Source of the DNA: Stappia sediminis
Lineage (GTDB): Bacteria; Pseudomonadota; Alphaproteobacteria; Rhizobiales; Stappiaceae
Length of the DNA: 64,000 bases
Direction of reading: 5' to 3'
Assembly (NCBI RefSeq): GCF_009826895.1
Contig: NZ_WUMV01000002.1
Coordinates: forward strand, 558,001 to 622,000
In this document: positions 45,645 to 57,034 of the stretch, in pieces
Numbering within the stretch: the stretch's first letter is position 1
Layout of the letters: each line of letters begins with the position of its first letter
Made by a program: the position numbers and the translations under genes
The notes under the pieces: model-generated
Told to the model about the DNA's origin: nothing
The model's input: the letters and a program-made list of their open reading frames with translations, nothing else
Database searches by the model: none

Positions 45645-48600
45645 TCAGGCTGCTTCAGAAGTCTGGAGATTTTTCACCAACCTGTTCACGCCTGCGAAGT
45701 CGAGCTTTCCAGATCCGAGGATCGGCACTTTTTCAACAATCCGCACTTCGGCGGGCACCATCAGGTCCTGGGCACCATTCGCTTTGGCATGGTTCAGGAA
45801 ATCCGCTCTGGACGCGGACGCACAATCAGTGATGAGGATCAGCTTTTCGCCTTTGCGCTCATCCTTGACGGCAGCGACGGCCGAGAGGTGACCAGGCCAG
45901 ATGAGTCCGGCAATCTCCTCGACGGCCGACAGCGAAACCATTTCACCGCCGATCTTGGCAAAGCGTTTGGCGCGGCCCTTGATGGAAACGAAGCCGTCCT
46001 CATCGATGCCGACAATGTCGCCTGTATCGTGCCAGCCATCGGCCAAGGGAACGATGACGCCAGGATTGTTCGGCAAAATATAGCCGACCATGATGTTTGG
46101 ACCGGCAATGTAAAGACGGCCGCCATCATCCACGCCTGGTACATCCTCAAGGCGAGCCTCGATCCCTGGCATCAGTTTCCCTACCGTGCCGACCTTGTTG
46201 TACATGGGCGTGTTTATCGCAACCACGGGCGCTGCTTCCGTTACGCCGTAACCTTCAAGGATACGGATCCCGAAACGTTCCATGTATGTCTGGCGCGTCG
46301 TGGGTTTCACAGGTTCGGCGCCTGCGAAGCAATAGCGCAGGGAGCGGAAATCGTAGGCATGCGCCACACGAGCGTATCCGTTCAGGAAAGTATCCGTACC
46401 GAAAAGGATCGTGGCATTCGATGCATAGATCAGCTCAGGAACGATGCGGTAATGCAGCGGCGAGGGATAAAGGAAGATCGGCACGCCCGATACCAATGGC
46501 AGGATCGTTCCGGCGGTCAGTCCGAAGGAATGGAACATCGGCAGGACATTGAAGACCTTGTCGCTCGGTGTGAAATCGATGCGTGCCGCCGCCTGGGTGG
46601 CGTTCGCCAGTACGTTCGCGTGGCTGAGCACCACGCCCTTCGGCTGACCTTCGGAGCCGGAGGTGAACATGATGACGGCCACGTCGCCGATCGAGCGCTT
46701 CTCAAGGGGGCGCGTACGGTTCAACCTTCCCATGATCTTGTCGGACAGGCTGATTTCCGAGCGGATATCATCCAGCCATATGAATTCGACTTCCCGGCCG
46801 ACCTCATCGACGAGCGCATCGAGCTTGGCCTGGGTGACGAAGGCGCGTGATGACAGAACCTTGGTTACCTTTGCAGTGTGGCAGGCGGAAATGACGTTTC
46901 GCGTACCGGAGGTGAAATTGATCATCGCCGGGATCTTGCCCGCTGACATCAGCGCAAGTGTCGTCACAACGGCTCCATTGGCGTTCGGCAACATCACGCC
47001 CACGGTTTCCTCGTCACCCAATATCCGGGAAAGCTTGCGTGCCAAAACAGACGTCCCGGTCAGGAGGTTGCCGTAGGAGAGGCGGCCTGACACGGGATCC
47101 TCGACCGCTGTCTCGGACATGCCACGCTCCCGGGCGGTCTCGACGACCCGCTCCACGATCGTCTTGTCCGTCGGCAAGCTCGTTTCGAAGATCAGGTTGG
47201 ACATGATCTCATAAAGCTTCGTACCGGCGGCGGCGCGTCGCTTGCGGCCCCTCAAGTCGGCCGCGACCGTCAGTTCCTGCGGCTCCATGATGGTGACCTT
47301 GACCTTTGGGAAGAGTTTCTTCCGGATCTGGCTCGGGCTCAGGTATGAAAACGGCGTTTTTTCCAGACCGTCGATGCGGATCGGCAGGATTTTCGCGCCG
47401 GTCTTGTCGGCCACCATGGCCGCGCCGTCGTAAACCTTCATCAGACTTCCGGTAACCGTGATCCGCCCTTCGGGGAAAATCACCATTGGTTCTCCCGATC
47501 CGACCACCTTGATGAGGGATCGCGTTGCCATGGGTTTCGCCGGGTTGATCGGCAAGGCATTCGCCAGCTTCAGGAACGGGCGGATCCAGGGTCGTTGTGC
47601 AACGTGATAGTCGACGGCAAAAGTGGGTGCCTTGTCGGTCAGGGTAAGTGCGACTGCAGCATCGAGATAACTTACATGGTTCAAAGCCAGGATTGGCGCC
47701 TCACCGGCTTTTTCCAGGTTTTCAAGGCCTTTTACCTCCAGGCGGAAGAAGGCGCGGTAGATGATGGAGACCAGGTCGCGAAAGGGGTCCGTCGGCAGTT
47801 TCTTGAACATGACGATTGCCGCAAGCGCGCTGAACCCGGCCAGAATGAGCATGACATTGGATGTGCCCAGCCCGAGGTTCTGCGCGAAGGCGAGTGCAGC
47901 CCCACCGGCCGCCATTACAGCCGCACCGAGAGCATTGGCACCGGCAATGGTGCGCGCACGGTGTTGCGGGGCAGCCCAAGCCTGCAGGGCCGTAAAGGTC
48001 GGAACTGCCAGCAAGGCGCCCGAGATTGCGAGCCCCGTCATGTCTACCGCGACCCGCAACACACCGGGCTGGGATATGAAGTCGCTAAAGGTGACCGCGC
48101 TCGACACAGTCGCGAAGCCGTTTAGGGCGAAATGGACATCAAGGCAGAAGACAGCCATCAAGGCCGTGCCCAGCACTGCGGGAAGCAATACGACGCGTCC
48201 CGCGCAAAACCACGCGGCAATCGCCGAACCGATGCCAATGGACAGCGCGAAGACGGTCAGGAAGAACGTGACCATCGTCTCTCCACCGCCGAGGGTATCC
48301 CTCACGATTACGGGGAGAACGGACAGGACGACTGCGCCAACCAGCCAGAACCAGGAACTCATGACCGCGACGCGGAAGAGGCGCCGGTCACGGAAAAGAT
48401 CCGCGAGGATATTCCTGGTGGATTTCAGGACGTTCCAGTCGGGGCGAAGATCGGGCGCTGCAGCCTGGGTGGAAGGGATTTTCCGGCTGACGAGGTAACA
48501 TCCGACGGCAAGCGTCAACATGAGCGGCGCGAAGGCGAGCGTGGCATTGTTGCGGGCAAACAGGAGGCCTGCGGATATTGTACCGCCTAAAATGGCGAGG

Positions 48601-49043
48601 AATGTACCAGCCTCGACCCAGGCGTTTGCCCTTGGCAGTTCTTCCGGATCCAGATGATCCGGAAGGATACCGTATTTAACCGGACTGAACAGCGCGGAGA
48701 CGGACCCAAAAACAAATAGCGCGACAAACAGGACTGGAACGGATTGGAAGGCCATGCCCGCCACCGCGAGGGCCGCCCCTCCGATCTCGGCAAGTTTCAG
48801 ATTCCGAGCCACCGATGCCTTGTCGCAGCGGTCCGCGATCTGCCCGCCGAGTGCGGAAAGGAACAGGAATGGCGCGATGAAGACGGCGCCTGCAAGCGAA
48901 ACCAGAGCGGCAGAGCCGTTGGCGACCTGGAACAGGATCATGAATACGAGCGCATTCTTCAGAAAATTATCGTTGAACGCAGAAAGGAACTGGGTCCAGA
49001 ACAGCGGCGCAAAGCGCCGGGATTTCATTAATGAATTGGTCAT
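45645..49043 (-). CDS. aas: LplT-Aas fusion: lysophospholipid transporter, acyltransferase and acyl-ACP synthetase
   Basis: This 1132-residue protein joins three activities. Residues 1-400 are an MFS transporter like LplT (FWTQFLSAFNDNFLKNALVFM). Residues about 420-620 are a PlsC acyltransferase (NHVSYLDAAV, the H-x4-D motif near 452; FPEGRIT). Residues about 640-1120 are an AMP-binding acyl-ACP synthetase (FTSGSEGQPKG near 790; GYGVTEAAPV; YIAGPNIMVGY). In E. coli, LplT flips lysophosphatidylethanolamine inward and Aas reacylates it; here one polypeptide does both. ATG 49043 follows GAGGAAGCC. It is 54 bp after yiaA and likely in the pspA operon, fitting membrane repair. Confidence 0.93.
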   Translation of the reverse strand: MTNSLMKSRRFAPLFWTQFLSAFNDNFLKNALVFMILFQVANGSAALVSLAGAVFIAPFLFLSALGGQIADRCDKASVARNLKLAEIGGAALAVAGMAFQSVPVLFVALFVFGSVSALFSPVKYGILPDHLDPEELPRANAWVEAGTFLAILGGTISAGLLFARNNATLAFAPLMLTLAVGCYLVSRKIPSTQAAAPDLRPDWNVLKSTRNILADLFRDRRLFRVAVMSSWFWLVGAVVLSVLPVIVRDTLGGGETMVTFFLTVFALSIGIGSAIAAWFCAGRVVLLPAVLGTALMAVFCLDVHFALNGFATVSSAVTFSDFISQPGVLRVAVDMTGLAISGALLAVPTFTALQAWAAPQHRARTIAGANALGAAVMAAGGAALAFAQNLGLGTSNVMLILAGFSALAAIVMFKKLPTDPFRDLVSIIYRAFFRLEVKGLENLEKAGEAPILALNHVSYLDAAVALTLTDKAPTFAVDYHVAQRPWIRPFLKLANALPINPAKPMATRSLIKVVGSGEPMVIFPEGRITVTGSLMKVYDGAAMVADKTGAKILPIRIDGLEKTPFSYLSPSQIRKKLFPKVKVTIMEPQELTVAADLRGRKRRAAAGTKLYEIMSNLIFETSLPTDKTIVERVVETARERGMSETAVEDPVSGRLSYGNLLTGTSVLARKLSRILGDEETVGVMLPNANGAVVTTLALMSAGKIPAMINFTSGTRNVISACHTAKVTKVLSSRAFVTQAKLDALVDEVGREVEFIWLDDIRSEISLSDKIMGRLNRTRPLEKRSIGDVAVIMFTSGSEGQPKGVVLSHANVLANATQAAARIDFTPSDKVFNVLPMFHSFGLTAGTILPLVSGVPIFLYPSPLHYRIVPELIYASNATILFGTDTFLNGYARVAHAYDFRSLRYCFAGAEPVKPTTRQTYMERFGIRILEGYGVTEAAPVVAINTPMYNKVGTVGKLMPGIEARLEDVPGVDDGGRLYIAGPNIMVGYILPNNPGVIVPLADGWHDTGDIVGIDEDGFVSIKGRAKRFAKIGGEMVSLSAVEEIAGLIWPGHLSAVAAVKDERKGEKLILITDCASASRADFLNHAKANGAQDLMVPAEVRIVEKVPILGSGKLDFAGVNRLVKNLQTSEAA

Positions 49044-49097: not shown

Positions 49098-49379
49098 TTA
49101 GGCATCGTCAGTACTGCCGACGTCCCTCAAAAGCTTTTCGGTCTTGGCATCCTCGAGTCGGTTGTGGAATTTCTGGGCTTCGTCCCTGTCGCGGAGGGTC
49201 TTGGTGAGAGTGATGGCCGTGTGAACCAGCATGATCGACGCCATGGTGTAAAAGCCCTTCGCGGCGAAGCTGGCTTCCAGGTTGTAAATGCCGATTGCCA
49301 TCATGACCGCGGCGACGATGAAGCTCGTGGTCGTGAAGATGACCCAGTTCTGCGAATGTTTGATCGTGTTGTCCTGCAT
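49098..49379 (-). CDS. YiaA/YiaB-family two-helix membrane protein
   Basis: This 93-residue protein has two hydrophobic helices (FTTTSFIVAAVMMAIGIYNL and GFYTMASIMLVHTAITLTKTL) and a charged C-terminus (RDRDEAQKFHNRLEDAKTEK). The paired helices with NLEASFAAKGFY between them match the YiaAB family. Function is unknown. GAAGGAGAAAACC precedes ATG 49379. The gene sits 21 bp after pspA, suggesting cotranscription and a shared envelope role. Confidence 0.85.
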   Translation of the reverse strand: MQDNTIKHSQNWVIFTTTSFIVAAVMMAIGIYNLEASFAAKGFYTMASIMLVHTAITLTKTLRDRDEAQKFHNRLEDAKTEKLLRDVGSTDDA

Positions 49380-50120: not shown

Positions 50121-50164
50121 CTATTTGACAAAGCCATAGATATGAGCCAAGGTCAAGTAGAAAA

Positions 50165-50177
50165 TGAACAATGTTCA
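50165..50177. promoter_or_regulatory. Palindromic operator 2, pspA/tetR intergenic region
   Basis: A second exact TGAACAATGTTCA, 22 bp before the preferred GTG start of the TetR gene. Two identical sites on either side of TTGACA fit autoregulation and repression of pspA by the same TetR dimer. Confidence 0.75.
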
Positions 50178-50198
50178 ATTTTGATCGGGGATTGGTTG

Positions 50199-50789
50199 GT
50201 GGCTGGCCTTCAAAAAGTGAAAAGCGAGGAGACGCGGAAGCGCGTCCTTGGCGCCGCGGTCGACCTGATGGAAGAAGGCGGTCTCGACGCCGTGCAAATT
50301 CGCAGCGTTGCCGAAAGAGCCGGATATTCCGTCGGCTCCGTCTACAAACACTACGCCGACATCGATGCACTTATCATTGCTGTGAATTCGATCACCCTGG
50401 AACGCATCCACCAGGTAATGAGGAATGCGACAGAAGGACTTGAAACACCGATTGACCGTCTGAAGGCATTGGCTCACGCCTACTCCGAATTTTCGCGCGA
50501 GAATCCAAAATTGTGGAAAGGCCTGTTCGATCATCATCTGCCAGAGAGCAGATCGATCCCGGAAGAGCACAAACTGGCGAATGTCGCCCTGTTGTCCTTG
50601 ATCGGCGGAGAGCTTAAGGCACTGGACCCAAGCATGGGCGAAGACGAACTGGCAGCTCGCACCAGAACCTGCTTCGGCGCCGTGCATGGACTCGTGACGA
50701 TCAGCCTGGAGGAGCGCTTCGCCGGACTATCTGGCGATACGCTTTCCTCGGAACTGGACTTTCTCGTTCAACGTTTGGCCGAAGCCTAG
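50199..50789 (+). CDS. TetR-family transcriptional regulator of the psp region
   Basis: This 196-residue protein has the TetR helix-turn-helix at residues 10-60 (ETRKRVLGAAVDLMEEGGLDAVQIRSVAERAGYSVGSVYKHYADIDAL, shown here only as landmark) and an all-helical ligand-binding C-terminal domain. The start is GTG 50199: GGGGA lies 7 bp upstream and both operators are then outside the gene. ATG 50142 is possible but would put operator 2 inside the gene. It is divergent from pspA-yiaA-aas, which it probably represses; the inducing signal is unknown but may be a lipid. Confidence 0.87.
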   Translation: MAGLQKVKSEETRKRVLGAAVDLMEEGGLDAVQIRSVAERAGYSVGSVYKHYADIDALIIAVNSITLERIHQVMRNATEGLETPIDRLKALAHAYSEFSRENPKLWKGLFDHHLPESRSIPEEHKLANVALLSLIGGELKALDPSMGEDELAARTRTCFGAVHGLVTISLEERFAGLSGDTLSSELDFLVQRLAEA

Positions 50790-50840: not shown

Positions 50841-51509
50841 TTAGCCGAACCAACGCTTTAACCAGCGCCGTAAGCCGCTGGCTGCCGAAGATGCACGCTT
50901 CCGCGCGTGAGTTCTGGCCTCACTGGTATTTTCGTCGAGGTCATCGATAAGGTTGTCAATACCTTCAACGATAGGGTCGAGCCTGTTTCGCTTGAAAGCA
51001 CGGGCCAAATGGAAAACCAGGATGGCAATGATTGCAAGCGTCGACAGGAAGGCGATATTGAACCAGGGGATCACGATAGCGTCGGGTCCGGACACTTCCC
51101 TGATGCTTATGATGTTCGGGAATATCGTGAAAAACTTGATGCGCCACCCGTAATGGGTAACTGCCACCCATGCGCTATCGTGCTGAGCAAGTGCCTGAGC
51201 CTGCGCCGTTACGCTGCTGCTGTCGAATTTAAGGTAGGGCGGCCAGCCCCAATCGGTATCCTCGTTGCGATAGACGCGTGGTTTGCCATCCGGCCATACG
51301 GCATTGATGAAACGCACATCCCTTGTGCCTTCAGTGTTGGTTCCGGCATCCGGTGCGGCCCAAAATAACGACGAAGCGCCGATATCCATGCGCTTCACGT
51401 CGGTGCCGACGATGCGAACCACATCGTGACCGGGCAACGTATAGTGCGCGAAAAAGATGAAGATCAACGCTAGCGGAGCGCCCAAAACCCATTTGTATTG
51501 CCCAGTCAA
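50841..51509 (-). CDS. DUF1523 membrane protein
   Basis: This 222-residue protein has a helix at residues 7-22, an extracytoplasmic domain (HDVVRIVGTDVKRMDIGASSLFW, RNEDTDWGWPPYLKFDSSS) and a second helix at about 148-168, then a basic cytosolic tail (RKRASSAASGLRRWLKRWF). The DVVRIVGTDVKR region is the mark of DUF1523. Start is TTG 51509, overlapping the previous stop (TTGA). It is the last gene of the five-gene operon and probably its membrane anchor or sensor. Function unknown. Confidence 0.82.
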   Translation of the reverse strand: MTGQYKWVLGAPLALIFIFFAHYTLPGHDVVRIVGTDVKRMDIGASSLFWAAPDAGTNTEGTRDVRFINAVWPDGKPRVYRNEDTDWGWPPYLKFDSSSVTAQAQALAQHDSAWVAVTHYGWRIKFFTIFPNIISIREVSGPDAIVIPWFNIAFLSTLAIIAILVFHLARAFKRNRLDPIVEGIDNLIDDLDENTSEARTHARKRASSAASGLRRWLKRWFG

Positions 51510-52861
51510 TCATCCGCCCCTTCGTCTACCGGTATGGCGCCCCAGGGACCCATGTTCTTGCCCAAACCGTAATCTTGACCATCTTCATCCATGCCCGGTT
51601 CGGGGCCGAACAGTTCTTCCCGCGTCCCGACCTTGTCGACCATGTATTCGTCGGCGAGGAATTTCGAAGCGTACGCCTTCTTTTCGTCGCTCCAGGTGCG
51701 GTACTGGTCGTAGAAAGCTTCCTTGTGGCAAATGAAAAGCTGCCGGAAATCGTGCGGTGTCATCTGGGACAGAAGCATGTTGACCAAATGTTTGTCGGCG
51801 TGATTGCGAGATCGCAAAAGATAGAAATAGGCAGCGTCGTCCGGCGTGAGTCTGGGCAAGTCGGTGCCGATAGCTATCCGGCGAACAATGTCTTCAAGCG
51901 CGTGGTATACTTCCGGTAAGGCCTTGTGATATTTGCGCTTCAATGCGCGCAGATCGCGGCGGGAAACAGAAGAGAGATCTTCTCCATTGCTCGCGGCGGC
52001 ATCGATGACGATGAAATCCAGCTTCTGTTTCAAGATGCCCTGCGCGTCTGTGTCCCTGGCGTCGAAGATCGGTTCCACAAGCTCGTTTACATTCAGGAAA
52101 GACGCTACTGCCTGGCGATCATCCAGCGACAGAACGCTTTGCACCGGCAGATCATCCTTGCTATTCAGCCTTTCGATCGTGATGCAGGCCGTTTCCTTGG
52201 CATCGCGGAAAACGTAGATTCCGCCAAAAAGCGATGTGTAGAAATTGCGCTGTTCAAAGCTTTGCGAGCGAAGATTGAGCGGAGTACGAATGATGTCTCC
52301 GGTGTGTTTCGACAATTCGACCATTTCGGCGATGAGAACATCATCCCACCAGCCGTCAGGCTCGGTCATGAACCGCTCGATTTTCGCTGAAAGTTCATCT
52401 CCGGCTTCCACATGTCCGCCAACAGTGTCCGCATCGACTTCAATGGTGCTGAAATTGAAGAGATCACGCGGATTTTTCACGGAATAGACGGAGTTGACCA
52501 ATTCACCGACCACGGGGTCGCGGACGGAAAGTGCGAAGAGTTGCTCTTCATTCTCGTCGATGAAGCGCCTGAGGATCGCTCGCGACGTTGAAAAACGGGC
52601 GTTGAGGAGGGGGGCTGTCTTCTGTTCGACGGAAAGCAGGATGAACTGGCGATTGCAGCCGTTCGGGTTAAGATATAGAGGGTCATCCAATTCGTCGCCG
52701 ATTTCCGGAGAAAACCCGGAAATATCGATGTGAAACTCCTCAAGGGCGGTGCGCTTTCCCGTAACATGCTCCAGCGCCCGGTTGTACCGGCTGACCATGG
52801 ACGTGGAAGTGACCTCATAGAGGTTTCCGAACATCAGGCCATGTTTGACGAGACGCATCAT
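51506..52861 (-). CDS. Conserved unknown protein, AAA+ operon gene 4
   Basis: This 451-residue protein is cytosolic with no signal peptide or membrane helix. A beta-rich first half (YEVTSTSMVSRYNRALEHV; LNPNGCNRQFILLSVEQK) and a helical second half (SRRDLRALKRKYHKALPEVYHALEDIVRR) lead to an acidic, Gly-rich tail (GMDEDGQDYGLGKNMGPW). I do not recognise a catalytic motif. The ATG at 52861 overlaps the ATPase stop (ATGATG over TGA), so it is translated with the ATPase, and likely acts with it. DUF1523 overlaps its own stop. Confidence 0.72.
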   Translation of the reverse strand: MMRLVKHGLMFGNLYEVTSTSMVSRYNRALEHVTGKRTALEEFHIDISGFSPEIGDELDDPLYLNPNGCNRQFILLSVEQKTAPLLNARFSTSRAILRRFIDENEEQLFALSVRDPVVGELVNSVYSVKNPRDLFNFSTIEVDADTVGGHVEAGDELSAKIERFMTEPDGWWDDVLIAEMVELSKHTGDIIRTPLNLRSQSFEQRNFYTSLFGGIYVFRDAKETACITIERLNSKDDLPVQSVLSLDDRQAVASFLNVNELVEPIFDARDTDAQGILKQKLDFIVIDAAASNGEDLSSVSRRDLRALKRKYHKALPEVYHALEDIVRRIAIGTDLPRLTPDDAAYFYLLRSRNHADKHLVNMLLSQMTPHDFRQLFICHKEAFYDQYRTWSDEKKAYASKFLADEYMVDKVGTREELFGPEPGMDEDGQDYGLGKNMGPWGAIPVDEGADD

Positions 52862-54804
52862 GCGCGCGAAGCTTCCATGAAACGCCTTTTTGCCTCCTCC
52901 ATGCGCTGCATCTCGCGAACGGCATTCTCGATCGCGGCTTCGTCGGACTTGTCGGCATAGCGGAATTCGCTGTCCGCGTAGCGGTTGATCTCCTGAATGA
53001 CCATATCGACCGTGATCGGTCGGGCCAGTTCGGCGATCATGTTTTTCTTCGTATCGTAATCCTTGAAAAGAAAGACATCCGGATTCTCCATCCATTCATC
53101 GGGTAACTCGAAATCCATGGACCTGACCTTGATGGCATCGGTGATATTCTTGATGGCGCGGCCCGTGAACCTTTCATCCGCTTCCTGAATGGCCTTGAGG
53201 TACGTGCCGAGTTTAGCAATCGAATCGAGTTCGCCAATTTGCAAGCGCACACGATCGAAGACTTGCGACAGGGCGAGTTCCTGGGGCTGCGAATGGCGCT
53301 CGAACGAGGCTTCAACCGCTTTCGTTATGGCTTGTGCCTCGAATAGCCGATGATCGCCGACAGGAATGGAGTGGTTCTTTCCGATCAGCAGATGCAGAAG
53401 ATCGATGTAATCTTCGCGGGTCTGGGGGCCGTCGACCAGAAAGCGCGCCCCGGCGCGCTGCCTGAGCGCATCGTCCACATTCTCGGGGTAATTCGAGAAC
53501 ATCCCGAAGGTGCAATTTCCGCGCACAACGGTATTGGCGCCCGCGAAACTCTCCATCAAAACGGCGGTAATTTCCAGTTGGCCGGCTGATGATTGCCGGT
53601 CGCCGCGCTTGCCCGCAAGCTGGTCGATATCGTCGATCGTTCCGAAGCCGATGGCATTTGGATCGGTGATATTCTTTATGAATGACTTGGCGTTTTGAGC
53701 CGACTTGCCCTGGTAGCTGTCGATGCTTTCGGTTGACAGGTTCTGGTAGCGAAAGGCGTAGCCGGCGTTGGCGCAATATTCGTTGATCATGCCCGCCATC
53801 ATCTGAATGAGCGTGGTCTTGCCCGTTCCCGGTTTGCCGTCACCCATGAAAGTGAATATGAACCCGCCCAACTCCGCGAACGGGTTGATCTTCCGGTCAA
53901 AATCATAGGCCATAAGCATCTTTGACAGCTTCATTGCCTGATACTTGGCGATATGGTTTCCCACCACCTCTTCAGGCTTCTTGAATGCCATCGTCAGGAC
54001 TGAGGAGCGAGCGCGCGCTGCCGGCGTAAAACCGGTGATCTCGAAATTGTCGGCTTCGACGCGATATCTTGCCTCCGAAAACGACCTTGCTTGCAGGGAG
54101 CCTTCAGCGCGGAGCGTCACCTTCTCCATCAGCTTTTCGCAAAATGAGGTGATAACGCCGACCAGTTGCGCGTCCGAATTCGCGGCGGCCGCTATTTCCT
54201 GGTCCATTTCCCAAAGGGCGCCGTGCAGGGCAAGCTGATCGTTGTCGAGAAGGACCTCTTCCACTTCTCCGCTCTGGATTTCGGTCTCGCCAGCCTCAGG
54301 AGTGATGCCCGACAGCAGAAAGTCCGTCATGTTCGCAAATACATGGAGCGAAATGAGCGCGGATGCGGTTAGCAGTTCCTGAAACAGGTTCTTGCGCGAA
54401 GCGTCCAGCGTTCCAGCGAGATTGCTGCGCTTCAGGTCGCTGAGCCCGGATTGTTCCGCGAACTGGTCCGACGCCACTTGCGCAACCGAAAGTGCCCGTC
54501 GCAGCGAGCGCAGCACACTCGCCTGCAATGGGGTGATCATTGCATCATCATCTGTGTCGAAAATGCGGGCGCTCAACTGCACGCCTTGCGGCCGCGCGGT
54601 CGACCGTGTCACGAGACCGGGTGTTGTGGAGCGAAACCGGCGTCTCGTTCCCAATCCGCTGGAGCGCTCCCGAACATCCTTTGTCTGCCTTTTTGCGGCA
54701 ATGCGAGGCGTATGGTCGAACCCCTCCAGCATCGCCTCCGCCAAAGGGTATTTTTCCCGGATCTTTTCTTCTTTCAATTCCATGAGGTCGTTAGAAACAG
54801 TCAC
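52858..54804 (-). CDS. AAA+ ATPase, centre of a five-gene operon
   Basis: This 648-residue protein has a single AAA+ module. Walker A is GDGKPGTGKTT at 321-331, Walker B region is IGFGTIDDID at 385-394, sensor 1 is in FGMFSNYPENVDD (Asn438), and the probable arginine finger is in LRQRAGARF (449-454). The 300-residue N-terminal part has helical domains (SALISLHVFANMTDFLLSG) and could recognise substrate. The C-terminal helices are charged. Start GTG 54804 is used; ATG 54783 is possible. Such single-module AAA+ proteins often form hexamers that pull apart protein assemblies. The substrate here is unknown, with PspA or the coiled-coil partner as candidates. Confidence 0.85.
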   Translation of the reverse strand: MTVSNDLMELKEEKIREKYPLAEAMLEGFDHTPRIAAKRQTKDVRERSSGLGTRRRFRSTTPGLVTRSTARPQGVQLSARIFDTDDDAMITPLQASVLRSLRRALSVAQVASDQFAEQSGLSDLKRSNLAGTLDASRKNLFQELLTASALISLHVFANMTDFLLSGITPEAGETEIQSGEVEEVLLDNDQLALHGALWEMDQEIAAAANSDAQLVGVITSFCEKLMEKVTLRAEGSLQARSFSEARYRVEADNFEITGFTPAARARSSVLTMAFKKPEEVVGNHIAKYQAMKLSKMLMAYDFDRKINPFAELGGFIFTFMGDGKPGTGKTTLIQMMAGMINEYCANAGYAFRYQNLSTESIDSYQGKSAQNAKSFIKNITDPNAIGFGTIDDIDQLAGKRGDRQSSAGQLEITAVLMESFAGANTVVRGNCTFGMFSNYPENVDDALRQRAGARFLVDGPQTREDYIDLLHLLIGKNHSIPVGDHRLFEAQAITKAVEASFERHSQPQELALSQVFDRVRLQIGELDSIAKLGTYLKAIQEADERFTGRAIKNITDAIKVRSMDFELPDEWMENPDVFLFKDYDTKKNMIAELARPITVDMVIQEINRYADSEFRYADKSDEAAIENAVREMQRMEEAKRRFMEASRA

Positions 54805-54813
54805 GGGCGGAAC

Positions 54814-55947
54814 CTACTTGTAGCTGAGAATTTTGCCCTTCGGGCCAACGACGAATTTACGGACATTCGCAAAGCCTGGTGGATTGCGTTCCTTCAGTAT
54901 CTGAAAAGGGTGCAGGGGGAGAATGAGCGATCGCTGCTGATTGGTGTGGCCGTTGATGTCTTGCAAGGGGTCGCCGGGTCCGGCGAACGGATCAAGCCGA
55001 TAGACCTGGCGTTCAACCAGGGAAAAGAAGCCAGAGGCTTTCAATTCGGTACTTGAGGCCACGATTGTCTCGGTTGTCCATGCGAGTGCCCAATCCTCGC
55101 CGGGGTGGCCGCTGGCTTCGCTCAGAACATCGCGCAAGGGACCGGACTGCTGGGTATAGGCGCGGCTGTACATCGGGCCGATATAGAAACGTCGCAATCT
55201 TTTCGGGTGCAGATCATCGAAATCCTGATCGAAGCCCCGGGCGATCGTGACAAGCTTCAATGACGAAGATGATTGCGCCACGAGATGGCTTTGAATGCGG
55301 GGCCACCTTTTTTCGTCCTTCGCCAACGGTTTTCTGCCGCTGTCCTCCAGATCCATGATGTATATGAGCGGAATATTCTGCTGGCTGTCATAAACGGCCC
55401 AGTGCAGTCGGTATTGGCGGCGTGTCGGGTTGACGTTCCCGGTCCAGATCAAGCGTGGGTCATTTCGCGCCCAGAATATCCATCCGTTTGCCAGTCGCTC
55501 GTAATAGTGGCGCTGCGATGCGGCGAATTGCAGGTTCAACGGGGAGGAGTGTTCTCGCAGGATGTGATTCACCATCCCCACTTTCAGCTCTTTCAAGCCA
55601 GGGAGCGAGCGCAGGTGGTTTTCCGCCTGCATCGCATCGTTCGCCATCTGCAGCAGTTCCTGGTAAACGGGAAAGCCGCTGTCCTGGCGATCTATGCTCA
55701 GTAGGCTCGGCAGCAAATTCGATACGCGCCCGGCCAGAAGGTACTTGTAGGAGAGCGCCGTGAAGGTGCCCGACAGCGCTTCGAGATATCCTTGAAGAAT
55801 CGGAATTTCGGACTGAAGCGCGATGTCTTCGGATACAACGCCCTTCGCGACGCTTTTCAGGTGGGCAATAATCCGTTCGAACTTTGCGAAATAGCGCCGC
55901 GTTTCATGCGCCTCCTCCAAAGTTCTGTGATCCAGTGTTAGATCCAA
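54814..55947 (-). CDS. Conserved unknown protein, AAA+ operon gene 2
   Basis: This 377-residue soluble protein has no signal peptide. The N-terminal half is helical (RYFAKFERIIAHLKSVAKGVV; LPSLLSIDRQDSGFPVYQELLQMAND), and the C-terminal half is beta-rich with Trp and Tyr (GWIFWARNDPRLIWTGNVNPTR; LHWAVYDSQQNIPLIYIMDLED). I do not recognise a family. Start is TTG 55947 with GAGGG upstream, 10 bp after the coiled-coil gene, and it ends 9 bp before the ATPase gene, so all are cotranscribed. Confidence 0.7.
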   Translation of the reverse strand: MDLTLDHRTLEEAHETRRYFAKFERIIAHLKSVAKGVVSEDIALQSEIPILQGYLEALSGTFTALSYKYLLAGRVSNLLPSLLSIDRQDSGFPVYQELLQMANDAMQAENHLRSLPGLKELKVGMVNHILREHSSPLNLQFAASQRHYYERLANGWIFWARNDPRLIWTGNVNPTRRQYRLHWAVYDSQQNIPLIYIMDLEDSGRKPLAKDEKRWPRIQSHLVAQSSSSLKLVTIARGFDQDFDDLHPKRLRRFYIGPMYSRAYTQQSGPLRDVLSEASGHPGEDWALAWTTETIVASSTELKASGFFSLVERQVYRLDPFAGPGDPLQDINGHTNQQRSLILPLHPFQILKERNPPGFANVRKFVVGPKGKILSYK

Positions 55948-55957
55948 CGTTCAGCCC

Positions 55958-57034
55958 TCAGGCGCCGTAGGCATTCTTGTCGTGCTTTTCGACAATTTTC
56001 TCAAACCGGCGGGCAAAGCGTTCGTCCGATTTTGCCTTTTCCTCCAGAACCTTGCGGGCAAACAAGATGTGCTCGTCGTGCTGCTCCAGCATATCGGCCA
56101 TGCGGTGGTTGGTGGCAGAGCCGATGGCCGCCATGGCGGACTGCGCTTCCTTGTCCGTGGCCACTCCGATTTCGTTGATCTTGTGCGCGATATCCTGTTG
56201 CTGCGCGGTTTTCAGCGATTTGACGAGCGCATCGTACAGGACGACTCGCTGCCTCGTGTCCGTCTGGAGCTTGTTAATCAACACCATCTGGGTGGCCGCC
56301 TGATTCTGAAGGCTATCGACCCAGGTCTTGCCTTTCTCGATATAGCGTTCGAGCGTTTGGCTTTCGGCAAGCTTTACCTGTTCTTCTTGCACCAGCCTGT
56401 TGTAGTCGGCGTTCACTCGCGCAAGCTCACCTTCCAGTCTTGTGCGGGCCGATGCATCGGTCTCAACGGCGATCTTGTTCTCCAGAGAGATAATCTCCGG
56501 GTCCATTGCAAGGAGTTGCTTCTTGATCTCTTCCAGGGCACCGACAGTCTGTTCGCGCTTTGTGAGCGTTTCGCCAAGATTGGATTCAACGCGTTTGCTG
56601 TGTTCTTTAAGCGTGTTCAACTGGTCCTGAAGCAACTGCCCGATGACGTTGGACTTTGAGATCAGATCCTGCAGCTTGTCATCGATACTTGCGCTTCGCA
56701 TGCGCTCTTGCCGGATACTGTCGGCTCTCGCCTTCGAGAAGATTCCGATAAAGGTCTCCCAGCCGGTCTTGGAGCGCATGGCATCGAAGTCTTTTGTGAA
56801 ATTAGCCGTGACGTCATCAAGACCCATGATGAGTTCTGCGATATTGGCGCCCATCATTTCCGTATGGGCATGGACGTCATCAAGGGTCGCGTTCTCAATG
56901 TCGACTGAAATGTCTTGACCGGTGTCGAGCTTTTCCCGGGCAGTTTCTATTTTCGACGTGAGTTCGTCGATCTTTGCCCTTGCGGCGGCTACATCCTGTT
57001 TCGATTTTTCAATTTGAGCGCCAAAGTCTGCCAT
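55958..57034 (-). CDS. Coiled-coil protein, AAA+ operon gene 1 (TelA-like in character)
   Basis: This 358-residue protein is almost all helix: KSKQDVAAARAKIDELTSKIE at the start, then WETFIGIFSKARADSI, IDDKLQDLISKSNVIGQLL and a long heptad stretch to the end. There is no membrane helix. Its plan (helical rods, a Trp/Phe segment near 105-115, then a Gln-rich helix TQMVLINKLQTDTRQRV) is reminiscent of the TelA/YaaN family of stress proteins, but I cannot confirm that. ATG 57034 has AGGAAGAGG upstream. It opens the operon and may polymerise, serving as the target of the ATPase. Confidence 0.75.
   Translation of the reverse strand: MADFGAQIEKSKQDVAAARAKIDELTSKIETAREKLDTGQDISVDIENATLDDVHAHTEMMGANIAELIMGLDDVTANFTKDFDAMRSKTGWETFIGIFSKARADSIRQERMRSASIDDKLQDLISKSNVIGQLLQDQLNTLKEHSKRVESNLGETLTKREQTVGALEEIKKQLLAMDPEIISLENKIAVETDASARTRLEGELARVNADYNRLVQEEQVKLAESQTLERYIEKGKTWVDSLQNQAATQMVLINKLQTDTRQRVVLYDALVKSLKTAQQQDIAHKINEIGVATDKEAQSAMAAIGSATNHRMADMLEQHDEHILFARKVLEEKAKSDERFARRFEKIVEKHDKNAYGA

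Follow-up and report, generated by a model that had tools for sequence, protein, structure and literature searches.

Five adjacent genes of Stappia sediminis, here termed A to E, represent a conserved, unstudied ATPase unit with a lineage-specific inner-membrane partner. The genes lie in the analysed window, a 64,000-nucleotide stretch of contig NZ_WUMV01000002.1 whose numbering is used throughout. The unit is carried by about half of the sampled Rhodobacteraceae genera (48/100), several Rhizobiaceae and some Vibrio. It places three functionally uncharacterised Pfam families (DUF6638, DUF1523 and DUF2333) in a shared genetic context and makes of them a testable machine. The reading we prefer, at a probability of about 0.4, is an ATP-driven remodelling machine that acts on protein A at DUF1523 or DUF2333. 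In the open-access literature no paper was recognisable by title or abstract as treating this operon; DUF6638 was not named in any paper found, DUF1523 was named in 4 and DUF2333 in 1.

Organization of the gene set

The five genes are as follows:

Gene A, 55958..57034, minus strand: 358 aa, all-helical/coiled-coil protein, no Pfam family above the cut-off
Gene B, 54814..55947, minus strand: 377 aa, soluble protein matching no family
Gene C, 52858..54804, minus strand: 648 aa, single-module classical AAA ATPase (Pfam AAA)
Gene D, 51506..52861, minus strand: 451 aa, Pfam DUF6638, with a confident AlphaFold2 model
Gene E, 50841..51509, minus strand: 222 aa, DUF1523 membrane protein, predicted transmembrane segments 7-25 and 150-168

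Transcription on the minus strand runs in the order A, B, C, D, E and all five frames are open. The ORF coordinates bear out the number and placement of the genes given in an initial annotation of this DNA, with gaps of 10 bp between A and B and 9 bp between B and C, followed by 4-bp overlaps of C with D (ATGA) and of D with E (TTGA). NCBIfam added no name above its cut-offs for A to E, and Rfam and tRNA searches across the window found nothing. A divergent gene encoding a TetR regulator (50142-50789) lies next to E. Beyond it are minus-strand genes for a PspA/IM30 protein (PF04012; 49401-50114) and, near the latter, a YiaAB membrane protein (49098-49379), as well as a 1132-aa protein (45645-49043, minus strand) that we take to be an LplT-Aas type fusion of an MFS transporter, an acyltransferase and an AMP-binding enzyme. 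A link to the PSP system was rejected within loci L009-L038, where a single-sequence search with the PspA of the window found no relative.

Gene content and order are conserved

A and B are neighbours in the stated order in 81 non-duplicate loci, B and C in 82, C and D in 83, and D and E in 73 (L001-L004, L006-L008, L036, L037, L040 and L068 were left out of these counts as short or duplicate, and the D ORF of L005 is incomplete). The A-B-C-D order spans Stappiaceae, Rhodobacteraceae, Rhizobiaceae and Vibrio, where identities to the window proteins are 41% for C, 35% for A, 27% for B and 26% for D. Its recurrence in 81-83 loci, down to Vibrio, shows that the arrangement is not due to chance. 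A and C are the most conserved members; the window's A shares ∼70% identity with that of most Rhodobacteraceae, and the mean column identity of A is 77% (alignment A4). The A sequences of L045 and L069, which are truncated, and some nearly identical rows do not enter alignment A1, and profiles A7 and A8 were built on part of the available rows.

Most Stappiaceae loci have gaps close to zero at every junction, a tight spacing peculiar to this family, to which the window belongs. Across the loci the median gaps are 88 bp (A-B), 53 bp (B-C), 376 bp (C-D) and 281 bp (D-E), with maxima of 1149, 828, 2129 and 329 bp, respectively. Other genes frequently occupy these gaps. As gaps reach hundreds of bases in relatives, fixed stoichiometry does not follow from tight spacing, and the earlier proposal that tight coupling implies a fixed-ratio complex falls. 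The argument from fixed content and order, unlike that from spacing, stands: order is unbroken wherever both genes of a pair are present, save in two loci (L041 and L077) in which D is followed by F, a small membrane protein described below, and E, and in which other genes lie directly upstream of D instead of C. At least 3 kb upstream of D is present in both of these loci, which come from genomes that are 77% and 85% complete, respectively. In the remaining loci that show D and E only (L021, L052, L063, L067 and L072), little sequence upstream of D is available. Small ORFs in 21 of the 81 A-B gaps share no sequence and may be spurious.

A search of GTDB contigs with D yielded 14 loci. Family and profile searches added 8 of 61 relatives and, across the class, 8 of 385 genomes, one of these below the family cut-off. 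Among 100 Rhodobacteraceae genomes, one per genus, 48 contained D, the family label of this sample being inferred from Sulfitobacter-like neighbours. An A profile matched 29 of 398 genomes across the phylum. Plasmid records (10) add Sinorhizobium, Shinella, Rhizobium and Vibrio, and no phage record matched C.

The ATPase and its soluble partners

C contains one Pfam AAA domain (PF00004, residues 323-456, 6e-13, 49.8 bits against a cut-off of 21.2), in agreement with the single module initially described. The Walker A Lys (K329), the Walker B pair D391-D392 and R448/R450, the candidate arginine finger, are invariant in 83/83 sequences. In all 83, however, the usual Glu of Walker B is replaced with Asp, making ATP hydrolysis itself uncertain. 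Among solved structures, the sequences closest to C are those of classical AAA proteins, i-AAA (2.7e-5), fidgetin-like (2.8e-4) and Vps4 (5e-4), relatives that unfold or remodel proteins. Searches of PHROGs gave weak AAA-type matches for C and one weak match for E.

No motif could initially be named in B or D. This holds for B, for which Pfam is empty, whereas D matches DUF6638 (PF20343; 1.8e-183, 610.9 bits against a cut-off of 27, residues 10-443), a family of unknown function. The AlphaFold2 model of D (mean pLDDT 87.2, pTM 0.82) is mixed α/β. Comparison with the PDB gave no match better than E 1.1 and with the viral BFVD none better than E 0.6, while the best VIA match had a Z of 4.6 over 65 residues. 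Rather than revealing an unrelated enzyme, the PDB and BFVD comparisons matched no known fold; the simplest reading of the model is a fold without a solved relative, although a new fold is not thereby proven. In B, W183, D187, D240, R253 and W286 are invariant. Neither B nor D gave a convincing match to the sequences of solved structures, and kinship between the two was rejected, as profile comparison shows no relation.

The AlphaFold2 model of A is all helical, consistent with the coiled coil originally predicted, at low confidence (mean pLDDT 68.7). Its long helices comprise residues 117-190 and 194-289, and the model is best in 117-190 and the first part of 194-289. This long, hairpin-like helix pair would suit a bacterial ESCRT-like system in which A would form a polymer of ESCRT-III/PspA type and C would play the part of Vps4. 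Vps4 and fidgetin-like proteins are among the nearest solved relatives of C, the PspA gene of the window lies ∼730 bp beyond E, and hhalign relates A to PspA with a probability of 22.8% (12.8% with wider sampling), higher than for reversed or shuffled controls. TelA, however, scores alike against A (14.3%, and 8.5% with wider sampling, also above both controls); as the two scores are of similar size, neither family is assigned, and both may reflect coiled-coil likeness. In addition, Foldseek found no match to A at E 0.001 or better (with the low-confidence model as query), i-AAA outscores Vps4 for C, Pfam shows no MIT domain in C at E 1, and in the other loci examined the operon has no PspA relative beside it. 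We consider an ESCRT-like system improbable. VIA-align returned many α-pore-forming-toxin and other long-helix chains for A, with Z up to 11.4, a level that the method rates as common for helical models; ESCRT-III chains were absent among the 50 matches listed. The sequence of A gave coiled-coil-type matches only among solved structures. TelA (PF05816) did not match the window A in Pfam at E 1, and was absent among the 25 families listed, of 46 in all, for 55 A homologues.

The membrane partner differs between lineages

E matches DUF1523 (PF07509; 7e-62, 208.3 bits against a cut-off of 23) and its two predicted transmembrane segments agree with its initial description as a membrane protein. 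Two such segments are likewise predicted in each of DUF2333 and F, and none in A to D. In the sample of one Rhodobacteraceae genome per genus, DUF1523 is present in 88/100, comprising 48/48 genomes with D and 40/52 without (Fisher p 2.6e-4, uncorrected for kinship). E is not core to the gene set. As it is common without D, the adjacency of D and E may be regulatory or positional. The view of E as a fixed member must be abandoned, given its presence in 40 of 52 D-negative Rhodobacteraceae and its replacement by DUF2333 in rhizobial-type loci.

In Rhodobacteraceae a two-transmembrane protein of 80-100 aa (∼88 aa), F, lies between D and E. An ORF of at least 80 aa occupies 63 of 73 D-E gaps, and all 63 are linked into one family (F). 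Stappiaceae have DUF1523 alone as membrane partner. A further multi-transmembrane (4TM) family of ∼110 aa occurs in 19 of 100 Rhodobacteraceae genomes. Ten of these contain D, and there coordinates place the 4TM gene between C and D; nine lack D (L142-L150), and all nine carry it shortly before E, six of them together with a detected F. Hence 4TM-F-E is an independent cluster, to which A-B-C-D is added or which stays behind on the loss of A-B-C-D.

Rhizobial-type loci carry DUF2333 after D, in the place of E, in 15 of 16 cases (confirmed by Pfam in Sinorhizobium meliloti, L023); the exception is Rhizobium leguminosarum L026, with no DUF2333 in the stretch examined. At four loci (L085-L088) an A-like gene lies 85-240 bp from DUF2333 on the same strand in 4/4, with no B, C or D nearby. 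The S. meliloti site is flanked by genes annotated as thymidine kinase and formate-tetrahydrofolate ligase, and the same two genes, from translations read by eye, flank L085. In Vibrio (L024) neither DUF1523 nor DUF2333 is next to D; on this Vibrio vulnificus plasmid an mfd gene directly follows D (L024, 11124-14585). The C tree places DUF1523 loci on one side and DUF2333 loci on the other, indicating a single switch of membrane partner among the loci sampled.

These associations could also arise if C, together with B and D, served as an assembly chaperone for the maturation or insertion of envelope complexes that contain DUF1523 or DUF2333, with A as a scaffold. The presence of E in every D-positive genome (48/48), the retention of D with F-E in L041 and L077, and the existence of two different membrane partners are consistent with such a role. 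However, E persists in 40 of 52 genomes without D, and A-like proteins are paired with DUF2333 where C is not nearby. A chaperone function is, in our view, unlikely.

Descent and lateral movement

In a FastTree phylogeny of 83 C proteins, rooted on a single Vibrio sequence, the window protein groups with Stappiaceae (ten sequences, support 1.0), and this group is nested inside Rhodobacteraceae (support 0.986), which indicates that the unit moves whole. The C protein of G580, a genome from outside the class, is also nested among those of Rhodobacteraceae. D was not found in either other genome of the window's genus and is missing from 33 of 37 genomes of its family (4/37 have it), pointing to lateral movement. 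In an empty-site test no comparable flanking match was found in the two same-genus genomes. In relatives gene order is kept where the genes are present, in line with the initial interpretation; the two other genomes of the genus lack the operon itself. From these sequence comparisons the unit is laterally moved yet slow to change in sequence.

The C-D junction

In 53 of 83 loci a plus-strand ORF of 80 aa or longer lies between C and D. The contents of this gap include AbiJ_NTD4 (L029), DUF3825 (L030), Mrr_N with Mrr_cat (L045), an HNH-like product that scores under the Pfam cut-off (L048), DUF559 (L093, linked by BLAST to six other rhizobial loci), and unnamed transmembrane and soluble families; the B-C gap of L091 holds a Fic protein. 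Four Sulfitobacter loci (L017-L020) are 78-95% identical over A-E and have unrelated C-D contents, with products of at least 80 aa of 201 aa, 263 aa, none and 112 aa, respectively. The commonest family is the 4TM protein (15 loci by linkage). Exact ATGA overlaps were excluded as evidence of coupling of these genes, as a final sense codon with A in third place, followed by TGA, suffices to create one. In four assemblies (L052, L063, L067 and L072) contigs end within ∼700 bp upstream of D, a hint of repeated DNA in the junction.

The junction resembles an effector slot, and a conflict or defence system can be envisaged in which A-B-C-D is a sensing/ATPase core and the exchangeable C-D gene an effector, as in modular antiphage systems. 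The frequency of the C-D ORF (53/83), the nature of its products (AbiJ_NTD4, Mrr_N and Mrr_cat, HNH-like, DUF3825, DUF559 and transmembrane proteins, and Fic in one B-C gap), the turnover seen in the Sulfitobacter loci against a core that is 78-95% identical, and the patchy presence in the window's family (4/37 genomes) all argue in this direction. Passenger genes at a unit boundary, however, explain the contents equally well. L041 and L077, where D-F-E stands apart from A-B-C, mark the C-D gap as a junction between units, and in the window and its family C and D overlap, so no gene lies there. The commonest family belongs to the 4TM-F-E cluster, found also without D, DUF559 genes are gained and lost between loci, and of 5 genomes matched by another tested family (A11), 2 carry it away from the operon. 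In addition, PADLOC 2.0.0 gave no match for A, B, D or E and weak AAA-domain matches only for C, TRIP13-type among these (3.5e-6), and found no antiphage-system core; A and C evolve slowly, and phage records hold no match to C. The effector reading was demoted on the grounds that the commonest family belongs to the 4TM-F-E cluster and that D-F-E can stand without A-B-C, and we judge a defence function to be unlikely. There is an equally slim chance of a broader case, an undescribed, horizontally moving Proteobacteria machine that combines remodelling of a helical polymer, an interchangeable DUF1523/DUF2333 dock and a new-fold DUF6638 partner with, in Rhodobacteraceae, an effector-like central gene tied to conflict or stress.

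A possible remodelling machine at the inner membrane

The single AAA module, helical A, membrane-spanning E and gene order of the initial interpretation are retained, and its fixed ratio and constant E are not. We infer a physical complex, in the form of an ATP-driven machine that would sit at the inner membrane with A as its substrate. C, presumably a hexamer, would pull on or disassemble assemblies of the long helical A, and B and D would act as dedicated soluble cofactors, for example adaptors linking ATPase, A and membrane. The machine would dock at an inner-membrane protein that has an extracytoplasmic part and differs with lineage: in Rhodobacteraceae this is DUF1523, usually with F and sometimes with the ∼110-aa multi-transmembrane protein, in Stappiaceae DUF1523 alone, and in rhizobial-type loci DUF2333. 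Its cellular purpose is probably envelope maintenance.

Several observations favour the remodelling machine: the adjacency of A-B-C-D across Alphaproteobacteria and Vibrio, the presence of E in 48/48 genomes with D, DUF2333 after D in 15/16 rhizobial-type loci and the A-like/DUF2333 pairs (4/4). In addition, the membrane partner tracks the C tree, transmembrane segments are confined to E, DUF2333 and F as opposed to A-D, the relatives of C unfold or remodel, the model of A has long helices, and the unit moves whole. Counted against it are the frequency of E without D, the lack of either partner beside D in L024, the lack of DUF2333 in the stretch examined of L026, the lack of an adjacent C in L041 and L077, the weak model of A and the Walker B Asp.

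Comparison with known systems

The ESCRT-III/Vps4 systems and the PspA/AAA+ loci, the latter as described by Ravi et al. 2024 (PMC11237479), likewise combine a classical AAA protein, a helical protein and membrane proteins. They differ from the present unit in that A is not recognisable as PspA or Snf7, B matches no family and D a family of unknown function, and C has a single AAA domain, whereas the PspA partner described there has two. TelA (PF05816), like A, is a long helical soluble protein with weak profile similarity to it, but 5 of 10 genomes searched carry it as a gene distinct from A, and the search did not find it in the genome of the window. The TRIP13-type AAA+ proteins of defence systems share weak AAA-domain similarity with C (3.5e-6), although A-E include no other defence-type gene. 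MoxR-type AAA+ proteins are single AAA+ ATPases encoded in operons with dedicated partners, among them vWA proteins. The operon described here differs from these in holding no vWA protein, and C matches the AAA family PF00004.
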